Below are positions 7,146-19,859 of a DNA stretch of 34,060 nt, one piece after another. Location of the stretch: NCBI GenBank assembly GCA_027061805.1, contig JAMOWA010000046.1, positions 1 through 34,060 on the forward strand. Reading direction: 5' to 3'. The notes beneath the pieces are model-generated. The model saw only the letters and a list, made by a program, of their open reading frames with translations. It was not told the origin of the DNA and did no database searches. The DNA comes from Thermoanaerobaculia bacterium (GTDB lineage: Bacteria > Acidobacteriota > Thermoanaerobaculia > Thermoanaerobaculales > Sulfomarinibacteraceae). A program made the position numbers and the translations under genes. Numbering within the stretch: the first letter of the stretch is position 1; the number at the start of each line of letters is the position of its first letter.

Positions 7146-8537
7146 ATGCAGAAGATCGACGGTCTCCGGTACCGTGCGCTCGGACCTCAGCATCTCGACA
7201 GGATCGCCCGGGACGTGGGGCTTGACGGTGACCAGCTCACCGCGCTCAAGGCAGTGGCGGCAGTTCTGCCGTTCCGCGTCAACCGGTACGTCCTGGACGA
7301 GCTCATCGACTGGAACGACATTCCCTCCGATCCCATCTACCAGCTCACCTTCCCCCAGGCGGGGATGCTCGAACGGGGTGATTTCCTCCGCATGGTGGAT
7401 CTTCTGGGCAGGGGCGCCTCCGACGAGGAGGTCCGCAGGGAGGCCCGCCGCATCCGGATGCGGATGAACCCGCACCCCGCCGGCCAGCTGGATCTGAACG
7501 TTCCGGAGATCGATGGGGAACGCCTCCCGGGCGCCCAGCACAAGTACCGCGAGACCGTCCTCTTCTTCCCCTCCCAGGGCCAGACCTGTCATGCCTACTG
7601 CACGTACTGCTTCAGGTGGGCCCAGTTCGTGGGCATGGAGGAGTTGCGCTTCGCCAACCGTGAGGTCCAGACGCTCGTCCGGTACCTCACCACGCACACC
7701 GAGGTGAGCGACGTGCTCTTCACGGGTGGCGACCCGCTCGTCATGAGCACCAGTGTCCTCCGGCGCTACCTGGAGGCCCTCCTCGTGCCCGGACTCGAGC
7801 ATGTCACCAACATCAGGATCGGTACCAAGGCACTGGCCTACTGGCCGTTCCGATTCACCACGGATCGGGATGCCGACGACCTGCTGCGCCTCTTCGAGCA
7901 GGTGGGGCGGGCCGGGAAGCGGCTTGCGCTCATGGCCCACTTCAGCCACCCCAGGGAGCTCGGGACACCCGAGGTCCGGGAGGCCATGCAGAGGATCCTG
8001 GATACCGGGGCGGTGATCCGGTGCCAGGCGCCGCTGGTCCGCCACGTGAACGACAACGCCGAGGCGTGGGCCACCATGTGGAGGACGCAGGTTCGGCTGG
8101 GCGCCGTGCCCTACTACATGTTCGTGGAGCGCGACACGGGGCCCAAGCACTACTTCGAGGTTCCTCTGGCCCGGGCCCTCCGCATCTTCAGCCGTGCCTA
8201 CAACCAGGTCTCCGGACTGGCCCGCACCGTGCGAGGCCCCTCCATGTCCGCCACGCCGGGCAAGGTGGTGGTGGAGGGCGTGGCCGAGGTGGCGGGCGAG
8301 AAGGTCTTCGCCCTGAAGTTCCTCCAGGGCCGGGACCCGTCCTGGGCCAACCGGATCTTCTTCGCCCGCTTCGACGCCCAGGCCTCCTGGCTGGACGACC
8401 TGGAGCCCGCCTTCGGTGCGAAGGAGTTCTTCTTCGAGCCCACCCTGCACGCCATGGCCGAGGGGGCCTGGTTGCCCGAGTGGCGCCGGAAGGACGCTCC
8501 GAGGCTGGTGGGAGCTTCCCGCGAGGAGGCCTCGTAG
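7146..8537 (+). CDS. KamA-family radical SAM protein (lysine 2,3-aminomutase-like)
   Basis: KamA-family enzymes use a [4Fe-4S] cluster, S-adenosylmethionine and PLP to move an amino group between adjacent carbons; the group includes lysine and glutamate aminomutases and EpmB. The cluster motif CX3CX2C is at Cys148, Cys152 and Cys155. TGGDP at 193-197 is the SAM-binding glycine motif, and VRHVNDN at 298-304 matches the family. The glycine-rich PLP-lysine motif near the C-terminus of true lysine aminomutase is replaced by SATPGK (368-373), with Lys373 the likely PLP lysine. The aspartate that precedes this motif and helps bind lysine is missing, so the substrate is uncertain. A further ~90 residues follow. 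The ATG at 7146 has GGGAGG 5 nt upstream. It is monocistronic and convergent with an ArfB-like gene. Confidence 0.8.
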   Translation: MQKIDGLRYRALGPQHLDRIARDVGLDGDQLTALKAVAAVLPFRVNRYVLDELIDWNDIPSDPIYQLTFPQAGMLERGDFLRMVDLLGRGASDEEVRREARRIRMRMNPHPAGQLDLNVPEIDGERLPGAQHKYRETVLFFPSQGQTCHAYCTYCFRWAQFVGMEELRFANREVQTLVRYLTTHTEVSDVLFTGGDPLVMSTSVLRRYLEALLVPGLEHVTNIRIGTKALAYWPFRFTTDRDADDLLRLFEQVGRAGKRLALMAHFSHPRELGTPEVREAMQRILDTGAVIRCQAPLVRHVNDNAEAWATMWRTQVRLGAVPYYMFVERDTGPKHYFEVPLARALRIFSRAYNQVSGLARTVRGPSMSATPGKVVVEGVAEVAGEKVFALKFLQGRDPSWANRIFFARFDAQASWLDDLEPAFGAKEFFFEPTLHAMAEGAWLPEWRRKDAPRLVGASREEAS

Positions 8538-8713
8538 CCCGGATTGTTCACGAGGGTTCGTGGCGAGCGGTGCGAGGTGCCGTTGCCGGTGGTGGTCTCG
8601 CACGGCGGGGGAGCGAAGGCCTGCTTGCGGCACGTGGAGCGACCGGGTCGAGACAACGCCGCCGGGAATGGTGGATCGCACCGCGCGGTCGAAGCGTCAT
8701 GAAGGATCCGGGA
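8536..8713. mobile_element. MITE-like element, copy A, with terminal inverted repeats
   Basis: The left end reads AGCCCGGATTGTTCACGAGG, and the right end, read on the minus strand, begins CCCGGATCCTTCATGACG. These form imperfect terminal inverted repeats of about 25 bp. The left end overlaps the TAG stop codon of the KamA-family gene. The last ~58 bp are about four-fifths identical to the right end of copy B, including a shared core GGGAATGGTGGATCGC. No coding frame or transposase is present and no clear target-site duplication is seen. It lies between convergent genes. Confidence 0.75.
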
Positions 8714-8747
8714 CAGGCCTTCCACCGGCGCAGCCACGGTCCGTGTG

Positions 8748-8769
8748 GCGCCCGGGGACTCCCGGGCGC
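8748..8769 (-). terminator. Hairpin at the end of the ArfB-like gene
   Basis: GCGCCCGGG (8748-8756) pairs perfectly with 8761-8769 around the tetraloop GACT. The hairpin touches the stop codon (complement of 8769-8771) and lies between convergent genes, so it could act on either strand. There is no U-run. Confidence 0.5.
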
Positions 8770-9143
8770 TAGTCGTTGTCGGAGGGGCGTGCCCTGAGCT
8801 TCTTGATGCGGCTGCGGCGCCGCTTGGCCTCGAGCTCGCGCCTCCGGACGGAGCGGGACTTCCGGGTGGGGACCCTGGGCCGGCGGCGGCGGGCGCGGTC
8901 CGCCAGCCGCTTCTGCAGCCGCTGGAGCGCGATCCGCCTGTTCCGGATCTGCGAGCGCGTGTCGGCACAGGTCACCGTGACGCCCGTGGGGATGTGGCGC
9001 AGACGCACCGCCGAGTAGGTCCGGTTCCGGTGCTGGCCTCCCGGGCCCCCGGCCTGGTAGACCGTCACCTCCACCTCACGCTCCAGCTCCTCGAGGGTGG
9101 GGACCCGGCGTTCCTCCTCCCGGTTGCGGTCACCGTCGTCCAT
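8769..9143 (-). CDS. ArfB-like peptidyl-tRNA hydrolase (release-factor domain)
   Basis: The protein contains the catalytic domain of class I release factors without codon-recognition domains. GGQ at residues 35-37 (in AGGPGGQHRNR) is the motif that triggers peptidyl-tRNA hydrolysis. It is followed by SAVRLRHIPTGV, typical of this domain. The C-terminal ~45 residues are extremely rich in Arg and Lys, like the tail with which ArfB (YaeJ) senses an empty mRNA channel in stalled ribosomes. At 124 residues it is slightly shorter than E. coli ArfB, so another small release-factor-like subfamily is possible. The ATG (complement of 9141-9143) has no Shine-Dalgarno sequence; a -10 box ends 6 nt upstream, so the mRNA may be leaderless. 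Confidence 0.82.
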   Translation of the reverse strand: MDDGDRNREEERRVPTLEELEREVEVTVYQAGGPGGQHRNRTYSAVRLRHIPTGVTVTCADTRSQIRNRRIALQRLQKRLADRARRRRPRVPTRKSRSVRRRELEAKRRRSRIKKLRARPSDND

Positions 9144-9149
9144 GCAGAC

Positions 9150-9155
9150 ATCATA
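9150..9155 (-). promoter_or_regulatory. -10 box of the ArfB-like gene, leaderless arrangement
   Basis: On the minus strand TATGAT (five of six consensus bases) is followed by 6 nt and then the start ATG. Transcription would therefore begin at or next to the start codon. No clear -35 box is visible. Confidence 0.5.
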
Positions 9156-9368
9156 CGCGGCGGCGCGGACATCGGCCGGGGCTGCCGGTGCGGCGGTGGA
9201 CTCCGACAGCCGGATCGTGAAACGTGAAACGAATGAGATACGTACAGGCCGGGTATCGAGGGTTGCTCCAGAGGGTTGGGGAAACCAACTGGCCGGTTCC
9301 GGCTTCCCCTCTCCCCGGCTCCCCCGCACCCCTGCCCCTCCGGCTTCCACGCCGGGCGCTCCTCCTTC

Positions 9369-9387
9369 ACCTCTCCACGTCTTCACC
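9369..9387 (-). repeat. Low-complexity repeat upstream of leuS
   Basis: Read on the minus strand this is GTGAAGACGTGGAGAGGTG. It shares an 11-bp identical core and the final AGGTG with 12080-12100, on the other side of leuS and in inverted orientation. The surrounding 9144-9399 holds no gene: it has a short direct repeat (CGTGAAACGTGAAACG near 9218) and a pyrimidine-rich stretch. Confidence 0.6.
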
Positions 9388-9399
9388 CGCTCGCCCTCC

Positions 9400-9428
9400 T
9401 TCACAGATGCGTGCCGTGGTGCGACAAT
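9400..9428 (+). promoter_or_regulatory. leuS promoter
   Basis: TTCACA (9400-9405), a 17-bp spacer, then GACAAT (9423-9428). The -10 hexamer is the same as in the main rubrerythrin promoter. The predicted leader is about 30 nt. Confidence 0.55.
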
Positions 9429-14988: not shown

Positions 14989-17900
14989 TCAGCGCGGATC
15001 CGGGGGCGCCGTTGCAGGGAGGGCGGCGGAAAGCTTCTGGAGGTCCCGGGCGAGCAGGGGATTGAGCCGCAGGGCCTTCTCGAGCTCCTCCCGGGCCCGT
15101 GCCTCCGAGTCCCGTTTTCCTGCCGGTGATGCGGTGATCGCGGCCTTCAGGGACAGGAGCCGCGCCCGCTCCGCATGGGCCAGCGAGAGGTCTCCGCTCC
15201 GCTCGAGGGCCCGCCGTGCCCATTCCAGGCCCCGGTCGATCTCGGGGTCGGGCCTGCGTCCTCTCCGCAGCTCCCACTCCGCGGTGAGGCGGTGTAGCCT
15301 GGCCTGCTCCACCATGGCCTCCACGTACGTGGGGTTGAGGGAGAGGGAACGCCGGATGGCTGTCCTGGCGCGGTCGAGGGCATGGGAGGGATCGCCCCCG
15401 CGGTCCAGGGCCCACCGCGCCAGGACCAGGTGGGCCCGCGTCAGGATGTACCAGGTCTCCGCGTCCATGGGGTTGAGGGTGATGGCACGCCGCGCGGTCT
15501 CGATGGCGGCCCCTGCGCTCTTCTCGGGATCCTGCCCCGACCGCAGGTGATACTCTGCCAGGACCGCGTGGGCTCCGGCCATGTTGGTCCAGGTGGAGGC
15601 GTTTCTCGCGTTGAGCTCGCGTGCCCGGTCGAAGTCCTCGAAGGCGGGCTTCAGGAGAGGTTCAGGATCCCGTCCCTGGAGGGCGGCGAAACGGGCACGT
15701 TCGGCACGGGAGAGCCCCCGGTTGTTGTAGGCCACCCAGTCCTCCGGATACACGGAGATGGCCTGGCCGAGCACCGCCTCGGCCTGCCGGACGACGGTCT
15801 CCGGGTCCTGGCCGCTGTCCACGAGGATGTGGGCCTTGCCCCAGTACGCCGCACCGAGGTTGTCCAGGGCCACGAAGGCCCCCGGGCGCAGCTCGATGTA
15901 CCGCTCGAAGGTCTGGATGGCGTGATCGAGGGCCCCGCTCGCATCGAGACCCTTGCCCAGCTCCCAGAAGGCGCGCTCCAGCCAGACGAGGCCCAGCGAG
16001 TTCAGGGCCTGGGTGTGGGTGGGGTCGAGCTCGAGGGCCCGTTCCAGGCGTTCGGAGGCGCTCCGGAAGGACTCCAGGGGGTCCTTGCCCAGAGCCACGG
16101 CGGTCCTCGCCAGCTGCAGCTGGGCGAGGCCGGCGTAGGTGTTGAGGCCCGGATCGTCGGGGCGGATCCGGAGCCCCTTGTCCGCTGCCCGGACTGCCTC
16201 GTCGAGGACTGCCGAGGGGTTCGTCCCGTGGAGCATCTGGTACTCACCCCACTGGAGACAGACGAAGGCCAGGCCGGCGTAGGCGGGCACGAACCGGTCG
16301 TCGGCCTCGAGGGCCTGGGTGCACCGGTCCCGTGCCTCCTGGAAGACGGAGATCGGATCGGATCCGGCATCAACAAGGAGCATGGCCCGGAAGTTCAGGG
16401 TGTTGCACAGTCCCTCGTACCCCTTGGGATCGCTCGGGGCGATCCGGATCACCTCGGCGTAGGCGGCCCGCGCCCGCTCGAGGGCCTCCTCGGCCCGATG
16501 GACGTCGCCGTTCTCCCGTGCTGCAGAGAACCTCGCGATCTCCACGTCACCCTCGAGGGCCCTGGCCGCATGGAGCCACGGAATCCTGTCGATTGCCTGG
16601 TGGCACTTCGCGATGGCCGTGTCCATGTCATGCTCCAGGAAGGCGATCAGGGCCTCCCCGAACTCGGGGGCCTCCACGTCCACGGCGTGACCCTGGCGGA
16701 GCAGGCGTAGCGCGGGATCCCTGTAACGCTGGCCCGCCTCCCGCAGGAGCCGGCTCCGGGTCTCCCGGTCCCGCACGCGCTGGATGGTCTCGAGCTGCTG
16801 GCGGTAGAGGTTGGCCAGGACCATGCCCCACGTGAAGGCCACCTCCGGCTCGCGGTATCCCAGCTCCCAGGCCCGGGCCAGGTGCCGGTCGGCCACCTCG
16901 AAGTTCCCCAGCGCGAGATATCCACGGCCCAGGGCATACTCGCCGGGACCGCTGGCCGCACCACCCACATTCCGGACCGTGGACTCCAGCTCCTCCAGCC
17001 GGCTCCTGAGCTCCTGGATCTCCGGACCGATGGGATGGAGGGGCCGGGCGAGGATCATGCGGAGTCCGTTCTCGAGTCGCGCGGTCTCCTGCGTGAAACG
17101 ACGGGCGAACACGGCCTGTCGGCCGGCCTGCCAGGAGGTCCACGCAACCCAGGCTGCAGAGGCCACCACGGTGGTGATCAGTGCGCCGAGAGCGGCAGAG
17201 GCGACCCTGTTGCGCCGCATCCAGGACAGCCCCTGGGTCACCAGGGTGACCGGACGGGCGCGAACGGGCTCTCCCGCCAGCCACCGGTCCAGGTCCGCGG
17301 CAAGCTCGAGGGCGGTGGGGTACCGTGCCGAGGGCTCACGGCTCAGGCACTTCATGATGATGGCTTCCAGGTCGCGGGGGACGTCACTGGCGATGCGGCT
17401 CAACGGCGTCGGGTCCCGCTCGGCCTTCTGGACGATCACCTCGAGGGAGTTGCCCGTGTAGGGCGGCCGGCCGGCAAGGATGTCGTACAGGGTGGCGCCG
17501 AGGGCATAGACATCGGCGCGCCGGTCCACGGGGGTGTCCTCCGGCGTGCCCTGCTCCGGAGCCATGAAGGCCACGGTGCCGAGGACCGCGCCGCTCATGG
17601 TGACCCGGGGGGCGGCCATCTCGCGGGCCAGCCCGAAGTCCACCACGTAGGGCTTGTACTGGCCCGAAGGGAGACGCTCCACCAGGATGTTTCCGGGTTT
17701 CACGTCGCGATGGACGAGACCGTGCTCGTGGGCCGCGTGAAGGGCCAGGGCCACGTCCCTGGCGATCTCCACCTTTTCCCTCAGGGAGAGCTCCGGGGCC
17801 AGGTGCGAGAAGCTCCTGCCCTTGATGAGCTGCATGGCGATGTAGGGGCGGCCCTCCACCTCGCCGACCTCGAAGATGGGGCACACGTTGTCGTGCTCCA

Positions 17901-18399
17901 CACTGGCCTGGACCCGGGCCTCCTGGAGGAACCTCCGGACCATCTCCGGATCCTCGGTGTGGAGGAACTTCAGCGCGACCCACCGCTCCAGGCGGGGATC
18001 GAAGGCGCGATAGACCCTGCCCATTCCCCCCTCGCCCAGGAGATCGGTCACCCGGTACCGGCCCCAGTTCCGGGTGGCCTCCGGTGGCGAGGCGCCCGGC
18101 TGGAAGGCTGACTGCTCTCTGGAGATGAAGGTGGCGGGCGTGGTGTGGGTGGTGGGTATGGGGGCCGTGGGCGGCCTGGAGGGCGGATCCTTCAGGATCT
18201 CGTCCTCGAGCTTTTCCACCTGTTCCCTCCGGAGCACCCCCCAGCTGATCAGGAGGGCGATGCGCCAGCCCCATCGTCCCGGGGGCAGTGTGCGCTCCTC
18301 CTCCTCCGCCGACCGTTCCACGGACTCCAGGTCCTGCTCCGTCACCAGACCCCTGGTCATGGCGAGAGCGAGGATCTTGAGTTCGAGCTTCTGATCCAC
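14989..18399 (-). CDS. Ser/Thr protein kinase with 46-residue TPR-like repeats
   Basis: A Hanks-type kinase of 1136 residues. Residues 1-75 form a small helical region. The kinase domain runs from about 114 to 375, with the P-loop GEGGMGRVY (122-130), Lys144 in VALK, HRDVKPGN (230-237), DFG (254-256) and APEQ (280-283). All key catalytic residues are present. One membrane segment follows at about 398-420. The remainder, presumably outside the membrane, is helical, and from 679 on has repeats beginning GxDP with an exact 46-residue period. I choose the GTG start (complement of 18397-18399), because GGAGG lies 8 nt upstream and longer frames run into the repeat element beyond the promoter. The substrate and stimulus are unknown; an envelope-sensing role is inferred from the topology. 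Confidence 0.9.
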   Translation of the reverse strand: MDQKLELKILALAMTRGLVTEQDLESVERSAEEEERTLPPGRWGWRIALLISWGVLRREQVEKLEDEILKDPPSRPPTAPIPTTHTTPATFISREQSAFQPGASPPEATRNWGRYRVTDLLGEGGMGRVYRAFDPRLERWVALKFLHTEDPEMVRRFLQEARVQASVEHDNVCPIFEVGEVEGRPYIAMQLIKGRSFSHLAPELSLREKVEIARDVALALHAAHEHGLVHRDVKPGNILVERLPSGQYKPYVVDFGLAREMAAPRVTMSGAVLGTVAFMAPEQGTPEDTPVDRRADVYALGATLYDILAGRPPYTGNSLEVIVQKAERDPTPLSRIASDVPRDLEAIIMKCLSREPSARYPTALELAADLDRWLAGEPVRARPVTLVTQGLSWMRRNRVASAALGALITTVVASAAWVAWTSWQAGRQAVFARRFTQETARLENGLRMILARPLHPIGPEIQELRSRLEELESTVRNVGGAASGPGEYALGRGYLALGNFEVADRHLARAWELGYREPEVAFTWGMVLANLYRQQLETIQRVRDRETRSRLLREAGQRYRDPALRLLRQGHAVDVEAPEFGEALIAFLEHDMDTAIAKCHQAIDRIPWLHAARALEGDVEIARFSAARENGDVHRAEEALERARAAYAEVIRIAPSDPKGYEGLCNTLNFRAMLLVDAGSDPISVFQEARDRCTQALEADDRFVPAYAGLAFVCLQWGEYQMLHGTNPSAVLDEAVRAADKGLRIRPDDPGLNTYAGLAQLQLARTAVALGKDPLESFRSASERLERALELDPTHTQALNSLGLVWLERAFWELGKGLDASGALDHAIQTFERYIELRPGAFVALDNLGAAYWGKAHILVDSGQDPETVVRQAEAVLGQAISVYPEDWVAYNNRGLSRAERARFAALQGRDPEPLLKPAFEDFDRARELNARNASTWTNMAGAHAVLAEYHLRSGQDPEKSAGAAIETARRAITLNPMDAETWYILTRAHLVLARWALDRGGDPSHALDRARTAIRRSLSLNPTYVEAMVEQARLHRLTAEWELRRGRRPDPEIDRGLEWARRALERSGDLSLAHAERARLLSLKAAITASPAGKRDSEARAREELEKALRLNPLLARDLQKLSAALPATAPPDPR
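15121..16365 (-). repeat. Nine tandem 138-bp (46-residue) units inside the kinase gene
   Basis: Units begin at residues 679, 725, 771, 817, 863, 909, 955, 1001 and 1047 with GSDP, GTNP, GKDP, GLDA, GQDP, GRDP, GQDP, GGDP and GRRP. Each of the eight intervals is exactly 46 residues. Inside a unit are an Ala-rich helix with A/L at fixed places, a turn often written LxP, and a second helix with conserved Ala and Gly. A weaker unit precedes at 631 (48 residues long), and a partial one follows from 1094. Confidence 0.85.
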
Positions 18400-18444: not shown

Positions 18445-18491
18445 CATGTCCTGGTCGGGGTATGATACAGGCCCTCCCGGGGCAGGCCCCG

Positions 18492-18661
18492 GCCCGGATT
18501 CTTCACGGGGGTTCGTCGCGAGCCGCCGCCCGGGGTGGCGTTCCCTCAAGTGCGGATGAGAGGCGGCGCGCCCCGAGCACATCGGGCGACCGGACCGAGA
18601 CACCGCCTCCGGGAATGGTGGATCGCTCCGGGCAGTCGGAGCATCGTGAACAATCCGGGCT
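18492..18661. mobile_element. MITE-like element, copy B, with terminal inverted repeats
   Basis: The left end is GCCCGGATTCTTCACGGGGG, and the right end read on the minus strand is AGCCCGGATTGTTCACGATG, nearly the same as the left end of copy A. The element is in the same orientation as copy A on the plus strand. The middle diverges, but the inner right part (GAGACA-CGCC-CCGGGAATGG and following) is clearly shared. The right end overlaps the TAG stop codon of the thiolase gene (complement of 18660-18662). It has no coding frame. Confidence 0.75.
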
Positions 18662-19859
18662 AGGGCGCGGCCTCCAGGACCTCGCCGCTGCCGATGCCAC
18701 CGCCCACGCAACGGCTGGTCACGCCCAGGCGACCGCCGGCGCGGCGCAGCTGGTGCACCATGTCCACCACCTGGCGGGCGCCGGTGCAGCCCACGGGGTG
18801 CCCGAGGGAGATGCCGCTGCCCCAGAGGTTGGTCCTGTCCTCCGGGAGGCCGGGAAGGGAGTGGAATGCGGCGGCCAGCACCGCGGCGAAGGCCTCGTTG
18901 AGCTCGAACAGGTCCACGTCGGCCAGGGTGATCCCGGCACGCTCGAGGAGCGGGGGAATCACCTTGAATGCGCCCTCGCCCATGTAGGCCCGCTCGACAC
19001 CCATGTTCCAGAAGGCCCTCAACGTGGCCAGGGGCCGCAGGCCAAGACGTTCGGCCGCCTCCTGGCTGGCCAGCACGAGCGCGGCGGCAGCATCGTTCAT
19101 GGTGGAGGCATTGAGGGTCGTGATGGTGCCACCGTCCCGCTTGAAGTAGGGGCGTGCGGCCGCCAGCTCCTCGCGGGTCACGGGGCGTGGTCCCTCGTCC
19201 CGGTCGACCACCACGGGATCCTTCCGCTTCCGGGGGACCTCCACCGGCACCACGTAGCCGTCGAACCACCCCTTCTCCCACGCCTGAAGGGCGTTGTGGT
19301 GGCTCCGCCAGGCGATCTCGTCCTGCTCCTCCCGGGTGAGGCCGTGGCGCTCCACCAGCCGTTCGGTGAGGAGCCCCATGAGCTCTCCACCCTCCACGTG
19401 GGCGTCCGTGAGTGCTCCGAAGAGCCCGTCCACCAGCGTCATGTCACCGTAGAGCTGGCCCCGCGTGCGGCCGGTGAACAGGTACCGCGGCACGTTGCTC
19501 ATGGACTCCACTCCACCCGCCACACCGAGGTCGATCTCCCCGAGGAGGATCCGGCGGGCGATGCTGTGGATGGCGGCGCCGCCGGAGGCGCAGTTCTCGT
19601 GGAAGGTGGTGGCCGGCGAGGTGTGGGGGATCCCGGCCAGCTCGGCGGCGTTCCGGGCCACGTTCGGGGAGCGGGGGTCCTGCATGACGTTGCCCATGCA
19701 GGTGTACCGGACCTCCGCCGGGTCGAGGCCCGTCCGCTCCAGCACGGACCGGATGGCCAGGGTGGCCAGGTCCTCGGCCAGCAGGGGAGTGAGGCCTCCG
19801 CCGATGGCTCCGATGGGGGTTCTCACGGCACCGAGGATCACGACACGGGTCCGGGGCAT
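18660..19859 (-). CDS. Thiolase family acetyl-CoA acyltransferase
   Basis: Thiolases either cleave 3-ketoacyl-CoA (fatty acid oxidation) or condense two acetyl-CoA. The 399-residue product has the acyl-accepting nucleophile Cys90 in ENCASGG. It also has the NEAFAA motif, the catalytic histidine in GHPVGCTGAR, and the second active-site cysteine near 384 in CVGGGIG. This is a complete thiolase active site. Sequence alone does not decide between degradative and biosynthetic use. No other beta-oxidation gene is adjacent, so its pathway is open. The ATG (complement of 19857-19859) follows AAGGAGG by 6 nt. The stop codon TAG is shared with the end of repeat element B, so the last codon may have been set by that insertion. 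Confidence 0.93.
   Translation of the reverse strand: MPRTRVVILGAVRTPIGAIGGGLTPLLAEDLATLAIRSVLERTGLDPAEVRYTCMGNVMQDPRSPNVARNAAELAGIPHTSPATTFHENCASGGAAIHSIARRILLGEIDLGVAGGVESMSNVPRYLFTGRTRGQLYGDMTLVDGLFGALTDAHVEGGELMGLLTERLVERHGLTREEQDEIAWRSHHNALQAWEKGWFDGYVVPVEVPRKRKDPVVVDRDEGPRPVTREELAAARPYFKRDGGTITTLNASTMNDAAAALVLASQEAAERLGLRPLATLRAFWNMGVERAYMGEGAFKVIPPLLERAGITLADVDLFELNEAFAAVLAAAFHSLPGLPEDRTNLWGSGISLGHPVGCTGARQVVDMVHQLRRAGGRLGVTSRCVGGGIGSGEVLEAAP

Follow-up and report, generated by a model that had tools for sequence, protein, structure and literature searches.

Probable IS1380-type hairpin MITEs whose CTAG target often coincides with stop codons in a Thermoanaerobaculia genome

The DNA analysed here (the window, 34,060 nucleotides) is one whole contig of a Thermoanaerobaculia genome, and it carries two short hairpin elements, copy A and copy B, each of which meets the TAG stop codon of a neighbouring gene (Table 1). 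Copy A follows a gene for a radical SAM protein resembling the KamA family, while copy B lies against the end of a thiolase gene of the acetyl-CoA C-acyltransferase family. A preliminary description of the window had reported that copy B touches the thiolase stop through its right end, as copy A touches the KamA-like stop through its left end, and our analysis confirmed both contacts. The bounds given there for copy B (18492-18661) were off by one or two bases, the element itself spanning 18493-18659. The sequence TAGCCCGGATTGTTCACGA, which runs from the stop codon into the end of the element, has exactly two occurrences in the window, 8535-8553 (+) and 18644-18662 (-), and was absent from all of 100 shuffles. 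Both elements also have a second neighbour. Beyond the far end of copy A, at a distance of 56 bp, is the CTAG stop of a gene for a small RF-1-domain protein (release-factor or ArfB-like; window 8769-9404, -), and copy B adjoins a large gene (window 14989-18399, -) whose product combines a Ser/Thr kinase domain with many TPR repeats.

Table 1. Coordinates of copies A and B, their flanks and the genes that they meet in the window
Feature	Positions	Strand	Remarks
KamA-family-like radical SAM gene	7146..8537	+	TIGR00238 match below its cut-off
TAG stop of the KamA-like gene	8535..8537	+	Preceded by G (GTAG); met by the left end of copy A
Copy A	8538..8712	+	175-bp hairpin MITE
ACAG, outer flank of copy A	8713..8716	+	Probable decayed duplicate
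CCGG, outer flank of copy B	18489..18492	+	Probable decayed CTAG duplicate
Copy B	18493..18659	+	167-bp hairpin MITE, oriented as in alignment A1
Left terminal inverted repeat of copy B	18493..18508	+	CCCGGATTCTTCACGG
Right terminal inverted repeat of copy B	18644..18659	-	CCCGGATTGTTCACGA, read inward on the minus strand
CTAG target site beside copy B	18660..18663	-	Its TAG (18662-18660) is the thiolase stop codon
Thiolase gene	18660..19859	-	Acetyl-CoA C-acyltransferase family

The TAG touching copy B is the genuine stop codon of the thiolase. Thiolase profiles stop only three residues short of it, and the orthologous proteins of 11 relatives, which are 72-81% identical, have the same end point and no element end at their stops, which read CTGA, GTGA, GTAA, CTAG or GTAG. 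As these orthologues end at the same place without an element, the insertion of copy B left the protein unchanged, and with the stop kept in this way the earlier suggestion that such insertions leave the protein intact is borne out.

Copies A and B belong to a transposase-less family with many short copies scattered over this genome, which was searched in full (3.1 Mb, 68 contigs). BLAST with copy B as the query found 25 places. The end motif, with at most two mismatches allowed, gave 42 matches compared with none for the reversed pattern, and those matches that had no family sequence behind them were left out of the copy count. A sequence model built from 22 copies identified 41 distinct places, after opposite-strand matches of the same palindrome had been merged (55 rows into 41 places), and a further three are recognised by their ends only, so that about 44 places of the family are known in the genome. 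Full-length copies are mostly 175 bp long (about 160-180 bp in all), their consensus end is CCCGGATTnTTCAyGA, and at many ends the four bases immediately outside are CTAG, CTAA or TTAG. Identical flanks are kept in only 3 of the 22 two-ended copies, and 11 of the 33 copies in our first tabulation have one recognisable end only. The copies in this genome are older than those in its relatives.

CTAG is strongly avoided across the genome. It occurs at 0.29 of expectation in the 163 kb around the copies, and in 20 stretches picked without regard to copies, 400 kb in all, there were just 20 sites, of which 14 were intergenic, five were at stops and one was inside a predicted gene. The window holds four CTAG sites (3423, 8769, 18660 and 21994), three of which are stop codons. 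For Salmonella, many CTAG-containing sequences have been described as intergenic (PMC5337935).

The preliminary description had proposed that the distance from each copy to the nearest stop codon be tabulated, and we did so with gene ends from a codon-usage caller written for this analysis rather than from a curated annotation. The distances from copies to stops proved not to be random. In the first tabulation 13 of 33 copies are at distance 0 from a predicted stop, a position that a uniform choice of intergenic sites would give in 0.43% of cases (233/54,761; p ~1e-22). Two of 11 further places, one of them weak, do the same, for a total of 15/44, and 29 of the 44 places have no contact with a predicted stop. 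When the 13 of 33 copies are set against the non-genic CTAG background of this genome, 5/19 of which is at stops, there is no significant difference (p=0.38), and pooling this background with element-free CTAG sites near the copies (10/29 at stops) gives the same outcome (p=0.79). No stop preference beyond CTAG is thus detectable in this genome, and CTAG targeting alone suffices: the copies touch stops because CTAG hardly occurs anywhere but at stops and between genes. Among the 13 stop-touching copies the stop side still reads CTAG in 10, and the outer side does so in one of the 12 flanks that are known. This retention of CTAG on the stop side and its loss on the outside fits with selection for the stop codon and decay of the other duplicate.

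To look at the target site more widely, we used 139 loci fetched from relatives and other phyla, in which 91 end pairs were recognised. Of these, 52 are flanked by CTAG at both ends and one by TTAA at both. The patterns used to fetch these loci demanded the site at one end only, and the other end therefore provides an unforced test. The preliminary description had put forward a preference for TAG or CTAG at gene ends. Its CTAG component is supported by these end pairs and by the IS1380 ends described below, while gene ends as such are not detectably preferred in this genome, and elsewhere a modest excess is seen among young copies. Contact with a predicted stop is seen in 25 of these 52 young copies, and none of them falls within a predicted gene. 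Where neither flanking gene is more than 400 bp away, 20/29 young copies are at a stop compared with 31/79 background CTAG sites (p=0.009); for this comparison 15 element pairs with gaps of more than 400 bp and eight without context were dropped from the 52, and the background was reduced by 86 sites in long gaps, 48 sites that had no context and 146 genic sites. The difference is not significant within convergent pairs alone (p=0.37) or tandem pairs alone (p=0.08), and the excess may reflect the purging of promoter insertions, a true preference or gene-calling error.

The end motif was found in many bacterial phyla among the matches listed. Copies in the relatives are 176-179 or 297 bp long, and most have CTAG on both sides; the relative G034, for example, has two copies of 297 bp (L104 1523-1819; L106 1518-1814) with the same ends as the usual 179-bp form. 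In another relative, G046, it is TTAA that most often stands before the motif. Together with the insertion sequence at locus L289, these ends suggest that TTAA may replace CTAG in some lineages. A second end variant, CCCGCATTATTCATGA, has many occurrences in the relative G005 (e.g. L108, L111 and L113), often without a partner end nearby, and could stem from another, or a longer, family of elements.

Similar ends occur on several insertion sequences of the IS1380 family (NCBIfam NF033539, Pfam PF13701), where termini of the CCyGsATTnTTCAyGA type go together with duplication of a 4-bp site, CTAG or TTAA. Five of 25 transposase loci have such ends together with the site on both sides: L240, L286 and L088 (the last of these a broken locus) with CTAG/CTAG, L289 with TTAA/TTAA around an insertion sequence at 1285-2945, and L288 with CTAG/CTAA (read outward). 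On either side of the transposase genes at these five loci the 16-bp ends differ from the MITE consensus at one to five positions, and the three that were tested (L240, L286 and L289) belong to the IS1380 family by NF033539, with E values of 1e-109 to 1e-122. A search for a solved relative of the L289 transposase returned just two weak, chance-like matches. The remaining 20 of the 25 loci have such an end on one side or neither, which means that PF13701 taken overall is heterogeneous. The MITEs differ from the IS1380 insertion sequences in their size (~175 bp versus ~1.7 kb), in being without a transposase and in having a conserved hairpin interior that is not seen in the insertion sequences, and a comparison of the ends by eye found no likeness past the first ~16 bases, which leaves an origin of the MITEs through internal deletion no more than a possibility. 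PF13701 had no matches in the genome under study, and an autonomous partner was not found there. This partner may have been lost, and its absence bears on the mobility of the elements today rather than on their origin. PF13701 is present in 29/148 genomes of the class; among 59 relatives the ends were found in 16 genomes and PF13701 in seven, with both in only one, and the transposase occurs in 9/26 carrier genomes of other groups.

On this evidence, we consider it highly probable that copies A and B are non-autonomous hairpin MITEs with IS1380-type ends and target site, directed to CTAG and moved in trans. An IS1380 transposase that is now missing from the genome would have mobilised the element, which would insert at CTAG (sometimes CTAA, TTAG or TTAA) with duplication of the four bases. 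Where an in-frame TAG stop is part of the CTAG, the gene-facing side would retain the TAG and the protein would stay unchanged, and selection on the stop would then preserve the gene-side duplicate while the outer duplicate decays. With CTAG rare and almost absent from genes, an element directed to it would be expected to end up at stops or between genes. Several observations count against this model. Besides the missing PF13701 transposase and its rare co-occurrence with the ends, the transposase loci that do not have such ends on both sides, the dissimilar sequence past the ends and the small number of copies with identical flanks, they include the stop-side flank of copy A, which is GTAG rather than CTAG, and the young copies elsewhere, which are at stops more often than CTAG alone would predict.

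The mobiliser could instead be a different or domesticated transposase, with the likeness in ends and target site due to shared ancestry or convergence. Most carriers do not have PF13701, a tblastn search that used long ORFs from four IS1380 loci found an IS1380-like gene at 0/119 carrier loci of other phyla, and the interior and hairpin have been kept across phyla, which would not be expected of simple deletion derivatives. However, L240, L286, L289, L288 and L088 join IS1380 genes to the same kind of ends and site, and we regard a different mobiliser as unlikely. The elements are also reminiscent of REP/REPIN palindromes, which are moved by a RAYT (Y1) transposase and whose GTAG tags would supply the stops, as they are palindromic and intergenic and have TAG at the end. 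Their length of about 160-180 bp is nevertheless far from 20-40 bp, CTAG is duplicated on both sides, and similar ends are found on IS1380 transposase genes, so we give this origin almost no credence.

The preliminary description had further held that the outer ends could fold into a hairpin and act as a 3'-end structure of the mRNA. The hairpin itself was confirmed, as copies A and B fold better than shuffled sequences (z -5.65 and -3.0, respectively), and three members from other genomes do as well (z -11.2, -5.2 and -9.9). The interiors, compared without the 20 end bases, are alike across phyla, with z 14.5 for a copy from this genome against Nitrospira defluvii and z 13.4 for a Lysobacterales member against the relative G005; conserved stretches include TTCGTCGCGAGG near one end and GGCGTACT..AGTACGTCGAG at the hairpin tip. 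In an alignment of 11 members, which are not independent of one another, 18/45 predicted pairs have changes on both sides, the covariation is 0.321 compared with 0.143 in shuffles, and every measure is above all 500 shuffles (0/500 reach it). Little covariation was detected by RNAalifold in the 22 copies of this genome alone (6/36 pairs), and the signal required members from other genomes. The more stable strand is the same one in 11/11 aligned members. This strand bias goes beyond composition-matched shuffles in 10/11 (mean z -2.9), although part of it is composition, and it is weaker among the older copies of this genome (17/22, mean z -1.1). A skew of G-U over A-C mismatches is confined to the 11-member set (29:7, against 22:16 and 19:15 elsewhere). 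Arm-to-arm repair of the palindrome could be a simpler source of the covariation; by itself it would give no strand bias.

If the element were a 3'-end RNA structure, either a terminator or an mRNA-stabilising hairpin, it would be kept at stops for the benefit of the upstream gene, and both the folding of copies A and B and the excess of young copies at stops in short gaps agree with this. The proposed role in the mRNA did not hold up in other respects. We looked for a terminator-like U tract near copy B and found none. Either end of the element can meet the stop, with eight left and five right ends in this genome (p=0.58), and elsewhere there are 16 co-directional and 16 anti-directional copies relative to the touched gene, four of 36 stop-touching pairs being ambiguous. 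Because orientation is random in this way, the mRNA of the host gene is not the obvious user of the structure. The position of the copies is moreover accounted for by CTAG, and most of the known places are off any predicted stop, which together make a role of this kind very improbable. Membership in a known structured RNA family was also considered and rejected, as Rfam had no matches at gathering score in the window and four carrier loci.

It is intriguing to consider a broader scenario that we put forward tentatively and hold to be possible, if rather doubtful. The elements of the window's class, Nitrospirota and Gammaproteobacteria may belong to a single superfamily of mobile hairpins, either ancient or spread by wide transfer, in which the interior and the full hairpin would be selected as a single strand (either an RNA produced from the element or an ssDNA intermediate). 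The covariation and the strand bias of the 11-member set speak for this; the weaker bias in the older copies of this genome, the dependence among the 11 members, the possibility of repair between the arms and the restriction of the G-U skew to one set speak against it. An IS1380/piggyBac-like enzyme encoded elsewhere would act on them, and their entry at CTAG, and perhaps their exit, would be silent at stops.

Several known systems share some of these properties. MITEPsy1 of Pseudomonas syringae is likewise a small MITE that duplicates CTAG or YTAA, but it is 100 bp long, has unrelated ends and is ascribed to the IS5-like ISPsy2 (PMC3189936). The GTAG REPs are also palindromic, and their ends often give the neighbouring gene its TAG stop; they differ in being 20-40 bp long and associated with RAYT, and duplication of CTAG is not part of their description as drawn on here (PMC3733652). 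The eukaryotic transposon piggyBac duplicates a palindromic 4-bp site as well, which in its case is strictly TTAA (PMC7351741, PMC10140906), and it inserts at TTAA and exits without a scar (PMC7351741). IS1380 transposases serve as distant prokaryotic relatives of piggyBac (PMC10140906), and by analogy these MITEs might be capable of a similar, silent excision. A literature search, partly of titles and abstract openings, found none of the five family end sequences and no description of the family. MITEs that target CTAG or YTAA are already known, as are palindromic repeats that provide genes with TAG stops, while what is new here is a probable IS1380-type superfamily of MITEs in which the hairpin is conserved and the CTAG target frequently falls on a stop codon. 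Through this target, a repeat family positioned exactly on stop codons is given a concrete cause, as TAG is part of a target word that genes almost entirely lack, and silent transposon insertion becomes directly testable. A common mobile hairpin that has a conserved structure, and that usually occurs without a visible transposase, would matter both for genome annotation and for our understanding of how such elements persist.
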